From: Parafilimonas terrae
Lineage (GTDB): Bacteria > Bacteroidota > Bacteroidia > Chitinophagales > Chitinophagaceae
DNA: 64,000 nt
Direction of reading: 5' to 3'
Assembly (NCBI RefSeq): GCF_900115755.1
Contig: NZ_FOXQ01000005.1
Span: 124,001 to 188,000, forward strand
In this document: positions 23,419 to 39,508 of the stretch, piece by piece
Layout: each line of letters starts with the position of its first letter
Numbering within the stretch: position 1 is the stretch's first letter
Notes under the pieces: generated by a model
What the model was told of the DNA's origin: nothing
What the model saw: the letters and a program-made list of their open reading frames with translations, nothing else
The model's database searches: none
Translations under genes and position numbers: made by a program

Positions 23419-24678
23419 GTGGACAGAGTTATACAAAAGAAAAAATGGACAACGAAGAGAATTCTCACCATTGCGGGAATTGCAGCCATTGTACTATTAA
23501 TTGCAGGCAGCATTTATTTTACCAGCGGCGGCAATAAATTAAATGTTGACACAGAACGCATTACTATAAGCGAGGTTACTAAAGGCAAGTTTCAGGAAAA
23601 TATACCGGTTAATGGCGTGGTGCTGCCACAAACAACTATTTATTTGGACGCAGTTGAAGGCGGCCGCGTTGAAGAGAAATATGTGGACGACGGCGCCATG
23701 ATGAAGAAAGGCGAACCTATTCTGCGTTTATCCAACACCGATTTGATGATGAACATGATGACCCAGCAAAACCAGGTGTATAATACCTTAACCCAAATGC
23801 AGATTAACAATAATGCGGCTCTCCAAAATACAGTGGGCAAACAAACGGCCATGGCTGATGTGGAAAGCCAGTTTAAAGAAGCCGAACGCATTTATAACCT
23901 GAATAAAGACCTGTATGCTAAAAAAGCAATAGGCTACCAGGAATATAAGAAATCGGAAAATGATTATAATTATTACCTGCAAAAGAAAAGGCTTTCCGAA
24001 CAGATATTACAGCAGGATTCTGCTTACAGGCAGCAACAGGCAAAACAAGACAGGCAATCTTACCAGGGCTCGCAGGAAGCTTTGGAAATAATGCAAAAAA
24101 AGGTGGGCGATTTAATTGTGCGTGCCCCGGTTGATGGTCAGTTAACATCTCTCGATGCAGAAGTGGGCCAGAATAAAAACAAGGGCGAACGTTTGGGGCA
24201 AATAGATGTAATGGGCGGTTATAAAGTGCGTGTGGATGTGGACGAACATTATATTTCGAGGATTTATACCGGCCTGCGCGGCACCTTCACTTTTGCTGAC
24301 AGCAATTATGTGCTTGAAATAAAGAAAGTTTATACACAGGTAACGAATGGCCGCTTCCAGGTGGATATGGAATTTGTGGGCAAAGTGCCAAAGGGCATTC
24401 GCCGCGGCCAGACCCTGCAGATATTACTGGCATTAAGCGATGAACGCACAGCAATACTGCTGCCACAAGGCGGCTTCTACCAGCAAACCGGCGGCAACTG
24501 GATATTTAAAGTGAGTGAGGATGGCAGCAGGGCTTACCGCGTGGACATTCAGTTAGGCAATAAAAACACAGACTATTATGAAGTGTTAAGCGGTTTACAG
24601 CCCGGCGACAAAGTGGTTACATCAAGCTATGAGAATTATGGCACAGATATGCAGGAGCTGGTGCTGAAGGGGAAATAG
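23419..24678 (+). CDS. Periplasmic adaptor (HlyD/MacA-like membrane fusion protein)
   Basis: A 419-residue membrane-fusion protein. It has a cytoplasmic basic start (VIQKKKWTTKR) and one N-terminal TM (about 15-32). A biotinyl/lipoyl-like half (VEEKYVDDGAMMKKGEPILRL, about 78-100) precedes a long helical hairpin (about 105-235, Gln-rich). The second lipoyl half is VRAPVDGQLTSLDAEVGQNKNKGERLGQI, and beta-barrel and membrane-proximal domains follow. It links an inner-membrane ABC transporter to an outer-membrane channel, as MacA does. The start is GTG at 23419. No TolC-like gene is in the window. The ATPase gene follows after an inserted four-helix-bundle gene. Confidence 0.9.
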   Translation: MDRVIQKKKWTTKRILTIAGIAAIVLLIAGSIYFTSGGNKLNVDTERITISEVTKGKFQENIPVNGVVLPQTTIYLDAVEGGRVEEKYVDDGAMMKKGEPILRLSNTDLMMNMMTQQNQVYNTLTQMQINNNAALQNTVGKQTAMADVESQFKEAERIYNLNKDLYAKKAIGYQEYKKSENDYNYYLQKKRLSEQILQQDSAYRQQQAKQDRQSYQGSQEALEIMQKKVGDLIVRAPVDGQLTSLDAEVGQNKNKGERLGQIDVMGGYKVRVDVDEHYISRIYTGLRGTFTFADSNYVLEIKKVYTQVTNGRFQVDMEFVGKVPKGIRRGQTLQILLALSDERTAILLPQGGFYQQTGGNWIFKVSEDGSRAYRVDIQLGNKNTDYYEVLSGLQPGDKVVTSSYENYGTDMQELVLKGK

Positions 24679-24690
24679 CTTGGGGCTGCG

Positions 24691-24723
24691 AGGTATGGGG
24701 TTTCAGGTATGGGGTTTCAGGTA
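24691..24723 (+). repeat. Left flanking repeat of the four-helix-bundle gene
   Basis: A 14-bp unit, AGGTATGGGGTTTC, occurs twice in tandem (24691-24718), with a third partial copy to 24723. The inverse of the unit flanks the other side of the gene at 25126-25153. The stop codon of the enclosed gene lies inside this repeat. Confidence 0.8.
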
Positions 24724-25073
24724 GACGACATTCTTTCAATAAAGGCATAGATCATTTTTCTGATAGTAATAATCTCTTGCTGAAGTTCTTTGAATAGATT
24801 TTCAGGAATATAGTTTAAATCTTTCGACAGGATGAATTGATATTCTAACTCTGAACACGAACCTGCTGCAATGAATAAATATCGCTTCATTTCAGCGTTT
24901 GAACTTTTGCCGCATCCTTCTGCTATATTAGTTGGAATAGAAGATGAAGATCGGCGCATTTGTGAGGTAAGTGTATAAATTTCCTGTTGCGGAAAAGAAG
25001 CCGTGATTGTATAAACTGTAAGAGTGAGTTGATGACTTCTTTGCCAAATATTAAGTTCCTGGAAATCTCTCAT
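24717..25073 (-). CDS. Four-helix-bundle protein (23S rRNA IVP / S23-like)
   Basis: A 118-residue all-helical protein of the S23/23S-IVP family, related in fold to the Avd accessory proteins of diversity-generating retroelements. Typical features are the start MRDFQELNIWQRSHQL, the RRSSSSIP segment, the NIAEGCGK signature (49-56) and a C-terminal helix pair. The cellular function of the family is unknown. It is on the opposite strand to the surrounding ABC operon and separates adaptor from ATPase. It is bracketed by inverted copies of a 14-bp repeat. The last codons and stop come from the left repeat. This looks like an inserted unit. No reverse transcriptase or variable repeat is nearby. Confidence 0.88.
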   Translation of the reverse strand: MRDFQELNIWQRSHQLTLTVYTITASFPQQEIYTLTSQMRRSSSSIPTNIAEGCGKSSNAEMKRYLFIAAGSCSELEYQFILSKDLNYIPENLFKELQQEIITIRKMIYAFIERMSST

Positions 25074-25125
25074 AATGACGTAAGTTAATTATTTGTATAT
25101 TATACAACCAAAGTCAGAAGCTGGC

Positions 25126-25153
25126 TGAAACCTCATGCCTGAAACCTGACACC
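25126..25153 (-). repeat. Right flanking repeat of the four-helix-bundle gene
   Basis: Two 14-bp units (TGAAACCTCATGCC, TGAAACCTGACACC), the inverse complement of the left repeat unit with 2-4 differences. It ends 19 bp before the ABC ATPase start. Confidence 0.75.
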
Positions 25154-25172: not shown

Positions 25173-25850
25173 ATGATAAAGATTTCAGATCTCGAAAAAG
25201 TTTATCGCACCGAAGAAGTAGAAACCGTTGCGCTGAATAAATTATCCTTCGAAGTAAAGGATGGAGAATTTGTTGCCGTAATGGGCCCGTCCGGCTGCGG
25301 AAAATCTACGCTGCTTAACATTCTTGGCCTGCTCGATGATCCTGATGCCGGCAGCTTTTTATTTAACCAGATTGAAGTGGCACATTTTAATGAACGCAAA
25401 CGCGCCGACCTGCGCAAGCACAACATCGGCTTCGTATTCCAGAGCTTTAATTTGATTGACGAATTAACCGTATTTGAAAACGTTGAATTGCCATTGATTT
25501 ATACCGGCGTTAAAACTGCAGAAAGAAAAAAACGTGTGGAAGAAGTGCTGGATAAAGTACAGATCATGCACCGCCGCAACCACTATCCGCAGCAATTATC
25601 GGGTGGCCAGCAGCAGCGTGTGGCCGTAGCAAGGGCTGTTGTAAACCATCCCAAATTAATATTGGCAGATGAACCTACCGGTAATCTCGATTCTAATAAT
25701 GGTAACGAAGTAATGCAACTGCTTACGGAATTAAATGAGCAAGGCACTACCATCGTAATGGTTACGCACAGCGAGCACGATGCACGTTACAGCCACCGCA
25801 TCATCCGCATGCTGGACGGACAAACGGTTACGGAGAATATATTGATATAG
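25173..25850 (+). CDS. ABC transporter ATPase (MacB/LolD/YbbA type)
   Basis: A 225-residue nucleotide-binding subunit. Motifs in order are the A-loop region YRTEEV, Walker A GPSGCGKST (38-46), Q-loop Gln90, signature LSGGQQQR (142-149), Walker B LILADEP (162-168), D-loop NLDS and switch His199 (MVTHSEHD). It belongs to the type VII (mechanotransmission) group that powers FtsX/MacB-like permeases. It is the only ATPase in the region. Ten separate permease genes follow on the same strand, so one ATPase dimer probably serves all of them in turn (inference). Confidence 0.96.
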   Translation: MIKISDLEKVYRTEEVETVALNKLSFEVKDGEFVAVMGPSGCGKSTLLNILGLLDDPDAGSFLFNQIEVAHFNERKRADLRKHNIGFVFQSFNLIDELTVFENVELPLIYTGVKTAERKKRVEEVLDKVQIMHRRNHYPQQLSGGQQQRVAVARAVVNHPKLILADEPTGNLDSNNGNEVMQLLTELNEQGTTIVMVTHSEHDARYSHRIIRMLDGQTVTENILI

Positions 25851-30726: not shown

Positions 30727-30823
30727 TAAAAAAAGAAGCGTATAGCTTCCCGTAAAATTAAAATTCAAAATAGTCGTCCCGCCTTGACTTTTGATTTTTG
30801 ATTTACAATTTAAAACTGCCTTT

Positions 30824-39444: not shown

Positions 39445-39479
39445 GGTCAACAGTCAACGGTCAACAGTCAACAGTCAAC
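39445..39479 (+). repeat. RGTCAAC tandem repeat, 5 x 7 bp
   Basis: Five contiguous heptamers (GGTCAAC or AGTCAAC) right after the remnant's stop codon. They are followed by CCGTAAATCAGACATCA, a spacer sequence also found before copies 8 and 9. Confidence 0.8.
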
Positions 39480-39508
39480 CGTAAATCAGACATCAGAAAT
39501 CTTCTTTT

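Follow-up and report, generated by a model that had tools for sequence, protein, structure and literature searches.

The locus at positions 24,691 to 25,153 of the window (the whole stretch analysed, 64,000 nucleotides of a Parafilimonas terrae contig) is probably an S23 element, a mobile unit devoid of transposase whose S23 protein binds its own heptads. The layout, one S23 gene between inverted arrays of short repeats, is found in many phyla with a period of 7 bp (sometimes 8 bp), and the repeats co-vary with the protein. In addition, solo arrays match the S23 genes of their own genome, and orthologous sites occur with and without the unit, two of them with an exact 5-bp duplication. A protein-repeat pair travelling as a unit is the most economical account.

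The S23/IVP gene of the window (24717..25073, minus strand) codes for 118 aa and matches PF05635 (E 7.7e-39, 132.6 bits against a curated cut-off of 33.8) and TIGR02436 (E 9.8e-38, 128.7 bits against 24) over nearly the full length. It lies antisense between two plus-strand protein genes of the host operon that are outside the element, an upstream HlyD/RND-type periplasmic adaptor (23419..24678; PF13437, E 1.1e-12; NF038010, E 1.2e-48 and yet under the cut-off of that model) and a downstream ABC transporter ATPase (25173..25850; PF00005, E 4.8e-37). The ORF map and both S23 profiles thus agree with the initial annotation, which had placed an S23/IVP gene antisense between adaptor and ATPase, with its stop codon in the left repeat; this codon (24717-24719) is indeed inside the left array. 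The latter (24691..24723, plus strand) was detected by TRF as AGGTATGGGGTTTC repeated 2.4 times with a period of 14 and 100% matches, and by its inverted match to the right arm. It reads AGGTATG and GGGTTTC, both once more in the same order, and then AGGTA, with the G-rich strand directed into the element. The right array (25122..25153, minus strand; GGTGTCA, GGTTTCA, GGCATGA, GGTTTCA) is an imperfect reverse complement of the left one, the arms 24692-24720 and 25125-25153 being 83% complementary over 29 nt with a spacer of 404 nt. Therefore, of the flanking repeats annotated at the outset the left one stands as described, while the right one is not made of exact inverse units. The proposed 14-bp unit has to be replaced by one of 7 bp, since the 14-mer consists of two heptads (AGGTATG/GGGTTTC). 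The S23 gene is the sole ORF of at least 70 aa between the arms.

Among 12 compared genomes the site between adaptor and ATPase carries an S23 gene in three, P. terrae itself (G000), G002 and G011, and no S23 was found at the site in the nine others that have the adaptor. The empty site that had been suggested as a check exists in congeners, with just ~30-45 bp separating the adaptor and ATPase genes in G003, G004, G006 and G007, which are too diverged for a target duplication to be readable there. The G002 protein is 92% identical to that of the window, and the other side of its locus falls off the contig. Between these two genes 33 codons are changed synonymously against 8 amino-acid changes over 95 codons, indicating purifying selection on S23. 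In G011, which belongs to another genus, the S23 at the orthologous site (L030/L113, C1:4455942-4456286) is interrupted by an in-frame stop, and its heptads differ and are locally inverted. Since the window unit is common to G002 and broken by the in-frame stop in G011, its insertion into the operon is old and tolerated, and nothing suggests that it has moved recently. The idea of a small mobile unit without transposase, already present in the initial annotation, draws its support from comparative evidence (empty sites and two 5-bp duplications, see below) and not from recent movement at the window locus.

The AF2 model of the window S23 (pLDDT 95.7) is a four-helix bundle as in 2gsc and 2rld, with a Foldseek TMq of 0.92 to PDB 2gsc. 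The predicted fold is also that of 2rld and of Avd (4dwl, Foldseek TMq 0.81), so that the relationship of fold between S23 and Avd stated beforehand is recovered on the predicted model. Avd assembles as a pentamer, and the solved S23 structures 2gsc and 2rld contain five chains each. The S23p of Xanthomonas is described as a homopentamer (PMC4990558). Fold and pentameric assembly are thus as in the Avd of diversity-generating retroelements. Unlike Avd, the window protein is far below the cut-off of the Avd model NF033474 (25.4 bits against 80) and neither of its two adjoining genes, the adaptor and the ATPase, is a reverse transcriptase. No bAvd above the cut-off was found in the genome of P. 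terrae, and no S23 match in phages at E 1e-5. To our knowledge S23 has no catalytic or nuclease motif.

We have compared the flanks of S23 genes by taking 200 bp on each side and aligning the left one, without gaps and with +1/-1 scoring, to the reverse complement of the right one, with a threshold of at least 16. A search with the window protein in 28 relatives plus the own genome gave 83 S23 places in 22 of the 29 genomes, and 78 were usable after dropping five at contig ends. In this relatives set the threshold was reached by 48 of 78 loci in inverted orientation, against 2.0% when left and right flanks came from different loci, and by only six in direct orientation. A wide set was formed by the best 80 of at least 551 genome-contig relatives of the Xanthomonas protein XCC0516 and by 17 out of 29 S23-matching plasmid records (95 usable, two of 97 dropped at contig ends); many are MAGs and some are congeneric, so these loci are not all independent. 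Here 61 of 95 reached 16 inverted, against 3.9% of swapped pairs, and 17 of 95 direct. A third set, fetched for another purpose (45 of 50 loci used, leaving out four near contig ends and one duplicate), gave 30 of 45 against 2.1% swapped. Over the three sets, the wide one limited to the best 80 of at least 551 and the plasmids, 79 of 218 usable loci, about a third, stayed below the threshold. In 464 kb of the own genome eight of 351 ORFs reached 16, and these include the only two S23 genes of that stretch, leaving 6 of 349 non-S23 ORFs. Judging by record titles, and with many MAGs among them, the loci reaching 16 belong to Pseudomonadota, Bacteroidota, Cyanobacteriota, Nitrospirota, Planctomycetota, Acidobacteriota, Verrucomicrobiota, Cloacimonadota, Gemmatimonadota and Desulfobacterota-type bacteria.

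The protein search found seven S23 genes in the genome of P. terrae, with inverted heptad arrays whose sequences differ between genes, and the profile search raised this to 12 places, 11 of them over the cut-off. Eleven of the 12 reach a flank score of 16, some of these being irregular (as L284) or having arrays distant from the gene (as L286); the twelfth (L005) scores 13 and has visible AGTCCG-type heptads. Three cyanobacterial plasmids carry S23 genes with different heptads inside cas neighbourhoods (L196, L207, L203), in two cases between cas6 and cas4 and in the third between cas10 and a cmr3-type gene.

The 7-bp period is a general property of these arrays. Over 109 matched loci (relatives set plus the best 80 of at least 551 and the plasmids) the fraction of matching bases was 0.653 at lag 7 and 0.638 at lag 14, against 0.373 at lag 8 and 0.26-0.28 at the other lags from 3 to 13. 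When periods of 5 to 11 were tried, 7 was the best in 85 of 106 matched loci and 8 in the remaining 21; examples of this 8-bp minority are L189, L175, L141, L212, L135 and L182. The strand reading into the element is the G-rich one in 99 of the 108 matched loci with any skew, and arrays contain four units in 91 cases out of 224 and five in 59. A first register test and the null for arm identity were both biased by the choice of the best register, and they are not relied on here.

Protein and heptad change together. With pairs of similar flanking proteins removed, S23 identity correlated with array similarity at 51 loci (Mantel r 0.25, reached by 0 of 2000 permutations) and at 109 loci that include the best 80 of at least 551 (r 0.20, 0 of 5000). 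Array similarity exceeded 0.6 in 43% of the 23 pairs with more than 60% protein identity, compared with ~1% of the pairs below 40%. The effect is moderate and counter-pairs exist, S23 proteins more than 60% identical with unlike arrays, such as L073/L074. Looking for copies of the window array itself, as had been recommended, proved a poor question given the differing heptads of S23 families: a search with one 14-mer would miss the link between repeat and S23. A 16-base unit pattern with up to two mismatches occurs at 21 genome places against six for the reversed pattern, and four of the 21, including both exact matches, are the two arrays of the window locus.

Heptad arrays are also scattered through the genome. 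In 400 kb we found 25 lag-7 arrays with a score of at least 14, against none at lags 5, 6, 9, 10, 12 and 13, five at lag 8, one at lag 11 and 10 at lag 14. Mostly intergenic are 23 of the 25, while intergenic DNA makes up 10.7% by a simple ORF mask. No lag-7 arrays were found in 560 kb from two genomes of the same family lacking S23 hits. Over nine genomes the densities of S23 and arrays were not significantly correlated (rho 0.32, p 0.40), and some S23-bearing genomes are poor in arrays, with one in 100 kb of G016 (seven S23 hits) and none in G019 (five). Two solo arrays, neither assigned a strand, are found in the window: one at 30784..30815, best matching the flanks of the own S23 gene L288 (score 16), and one of GTCAACA/GTCAACG heptads at 39446..39501 (4.9 copies by TRF over 39446-39479), whose best match is to the flanks of the own gene L004 (score 17). 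A gene reading by eye as rpoA on another stretch of this genome (L257, C32:41188-42186) has inverted GCT-type heptad arrays around it and no S23.

We compared 28 solo arrays (scores of at least 14 on contig C32 and at least 12 in the window) with the flanks of all 12 S23 places of this genome. The mean best score was 18.6; when 12 S23 loci were drawn at random from other genomes of the order, 2000 such sets averaged 14.2 with a maximum of 17.1. With the whole 200-bp flanks, 0 of 2000 sets reached the own value, both against the same order and against the wide set (best 80 of at least 551), in a test that was run after noticing that the added S23 genes matched left-over arrays. An earlier version with seven S23 loci and selected arms had given 0.34 against the same order, which is not significant, and 0.03 against the wide set. 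Random pieces of the own genome gave a mean of 10.8 and a maximum of 16.1 against 18.8, a control that used the first 12 arrays and one strand and is indicative only. Dispersed arrays of this genome are therefore a repeat class matched to resident proteins, as known for RAYT/REP. The initial annotation regarded repeats unlinked to S23 genes, together with a gene kept at the same place in all relatives, as evidence against a mobile unit, and what was found lies in between: the gene is at the site in three of 12 genomes, and the dispersed arrays match own S23 genes although many have none adjacent.

Heptads published as repeats in their own right were found beside S23 genes. GGGAATC is a dispersed heptad of Xanthomonas, for which 186 arrays were counted in X. 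campestris and convergent pairs in 70 cases, and GGGGA(C/T)T is a heptad of Nostoc (PMC4692102). TAACTGA heptads of Beggiatoaceae and others were described without a partner, and a post-transcriptional role was suggested for them (PMC4679880). The term 's23' is absent from the main texts of both papers, which describe the repeats alone. Among the best 80 of at least 551 relatives of XCC0516, four Xanthomonas orthologues 86-89% identical to it (L116-L119), all from outside X. campestris, have GGGAATC-type flanks with scores of 14-16, and so do homologues in Lysobacter (L122, 20) and Solimonas (L124, 18); a fifth Xanthomonas locus (L120) scores 11. Three perfect TAACTGA units occur in 18 of 395 Bacteroidota genomes, 15 of which have PF05635 hits (13 over the cut-off). 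The other three gave no PF05635 hit, nor one to TIGR02436 in a scan that matched nothing anywhere. Of the 85 S23 places in the 18 TAACTGA genomes, about 50 were read. An S23 gene of G154 lies between TCAGTTA-like units and six TAACTGA units, and one of G338 is flanked by nine TCAGTTA units at one end and by degenerate ones at the other end. Long TAACTGA arrays were seen in G131 and G115 (L406, L407), where PF05635 and TIGR02436 hits are absent; there the array may persist after its S23 gene is lost, or a different partner may exist.

Presence and absence of the unit could be followed best on Nostocales plasmids, in which the junctions of six sites were compared by eye. At the first site the unit is present in Trichormus (L199) and Scytonema (L198), absent from Nostoc linckia (L213) and Aulosira (L214), and decayed in Nostoc C052 (L215); GTAAT stands on both sides, an exact 5-bp duplication. 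A second one is filled in L205 and L219 and empty in L216-L218; ATTCT stands on both sides in L219 (exact, 5 bp) and with one mismatch in L205. At the third (L211) ATG is duplicated exactly and four of five positions agree at 5 bp. No duplication was seen at the fourth (L202), which shows an 8-bp difference, and the last two (L201, L209) were too diverged to read. Inverted terminal arrays are hence accompanied by an exact 5-bp duplication at two of the six sites, and the empty alleles at the two readable ones contain no array.

Furthermore, the S23 gene of L219 (Nostoc plasmid pNPM1) is itself interrupted, at ~780-965, by an element of ~0.2 kb without S23, with the same heptad arrays and an internal hairpin-like stretch. 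Used as a query it was matched at 55 places distributed over 34 plasmid records. Coverage was at least 80% in 14 of these records, and among the partial matches are arms of S23 elements. Near full-length copies end in TTGAAGAAG...GTTTGATAAA. Their ends are conserved outside the heptads, so these S23-less elements may move in a different way. A first parse of a target duplication around the one in L219 was dropped, the supposed duplicate being part of the element itself.

The sense RNA of the window element folds with the arms paired (MFE -112.6 kcal/mol, z -4.2), so that its terminal inverted repeats can form an RNA stem like those of a 23S IVS. This agrees with an RNA element of the 23S IVS kind, here free-standing, from which RNase III would excise the array hairpin with S23 as a minor passenger, as suggested for Coxiella, whose IVS is processed by RNase III and contains inverted repeats of 28 bp as well as tandem heptamers ahead of the S23 ORF (PMC4990558). 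We consider such an element unlikely. Shuffling the unit order in one arm at 90 loci reached the real score in 44% of the shuffles, the real score still being above the shuffle mean in 67 of the 90; the arms thus match mainly as arrays of one motif and not unit by unit, which weakens a strict stem model. Arrays of binding sites fit this result better than a strictly kept stem, though a hairpin may form as well. Besides, a pure stem leaves unexplained the co-variation of heptad and protein, the solo arrays and the purifying selection on S23. Rfam gave no hits in 20 loci of the wide set, mostly poor in arrays. The location of the solo arrays, chiefly intergenic (23 of 25) and some beside housekeeping genes (rpoA), would suit an immobile unit in which S23, as a resident regulator acting on DNA structure or on RNA, binds heptads in many UTRs while the arrays spread as slippage-prone repeats, and so would the post-transcriptional role proposed for TAACTGA arrays (PMC4679880). 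This account is improbable in view of the whole units present or absent at orthologous sites with two exact 5-bp duplications, the decayed copy of L215, the element with the same heptads inside the S23 gene of L219, and the 12 S23 places of a single genome, 11 over the cut-off.

Classical transposition would be involved if the unit were a MITE with a cargo gene, the non-autonomous derivative of a transposon whose transposase reads the arrays. Although the 5-bp duplications at two sites and the short S23-less elements with the same arrays (55 places, 34 plasmid records) are what a MITE would produce, the cargo would have to be S23 in every lineage, no other ORF of at least 70 aa exists between the window arms, and one transposase family is unlikely to read so many heptads that track S23; a MITE therefore seems quite unlikely to us. 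The heptad arrays could also be independent simple repeats in or near which S23 genes just insert, considering that heptad repeats are widespread and that three of the 18 TAACTGA genomes had no S23 hit. Insertion into an array would yield direct and not inverted copies, and yet 109 of 173 loci (relatives set plus the best 80 of at least 551 and the plasmids) reached 16 inverted against 23 of 173 direct. Neither does it predict the co-variation between heptad and protein, and there is no array in the empty allele of the two readable plasmid sites, all of which makes independent repeats very improbable.

The S23 element that we favour would be a unit of ~0.45 kb in which two inverted arrays of ~4-5 heptads, pointing inwards, enclose a single S23 gene. 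S23, a four-helix bundle whose solved relatives are pentameric, would serve the heptads of its own element as their dedicated partner, most likely by binding them as DNA or RNA, which would make protein and heptad change together. S23 may in addition take part in the movement or copying of the arrays. As it has no known nuclease motif, the chemistry of movement would be performed in trans by an enzyme encoded elsewhere, either a transposase or a reverse transcriptase. The unit and its S23-less derivatives with the same arrays would spread in intergenic DNA leaving solo arrays behind, similarly to RAYT/REP. A more daring and rather doubtful version, based on analogy with Avd and its reverse transcriptase, is that S23 proteins might form a family of repeat-array proteins across phyla, in which each S23 subfamily would bind one heptad along one strand as a readable code, perhaps wrapping one array unit per pentamer subunit, and move its unit by an RNA-templated route. 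If this were true, S23 would both produce and target the heptanucleotide repeats long known from cyanobacteria, xanthomonads, Beggiatoaceae and Bacteroidota.

We know of no role for free-standing S23 genes, no accepted origin for the rRNA IVS and no partner protein for heptameric repeats. One rule joins all three: inverted arrays of a family-specific heptad enclose an S23 gene, and the same heptads are scattered in the genome. The role of S23, the origin of the IVS and the partner of the heptads could all be tested with one binding assay, for which this family of small proteins offers many natural, tabulated candidate target sequences. In the open-licence papers of PMC, preprints being outside the search, the link between S23 and heptads was not found stated. 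Judged by these papers, what appears to be new is this rule at the level of the system; the S23-encoding IVS, the dispersed heptads and the logic of RAYT/REP were known.

By anatomy the nearest known system is the S23-encoding IVS of 23S rRNA, as in Coxiella burnetii and Leptospira, which also has the S23 ORF within inverted repeats able to form a stem. Unlike it, the window unit is not within an rRNA gene but antisense to the adaptor and ATPase genes that surround it, and the genome has 12 S23 places in all, whose heptads differ. In length of the unit, intergenic bias and preference for about four units, the arrays resemble the published heptads GGGAATC, GGGGA(C/T)T and TAACTGA, and convergent pairs are frequent for the GGGAATC of Xanthomonas, as in S23 elements. 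The published work describes the repeats alone, whereas here GGGAATC- and TAACTGA-type arrays stand beside S23 genes. By logic the nearest system is RAYT/REP. In RAYT (TnpA-REP)/REP/REPIN systems (see PMC2817692, PMC3116915) one protein gene is likewise associated with inverted copies of a short repeat scattered genome-wide, and protein and repeat class are paired. The differences are that S23 is a four-helix bundle and not an HUH nuclease, no HUH (Y1) transposase being encoded between the repeats of the window element, where S23 is the sole ORF of at least 70 aa, and that the repeat is a tandem array of heptads and not a palindrome. S23 elements are therefore outside both classes, by their location in the case of the 23S IVS and by the nuclease in that of RAYT/REP.
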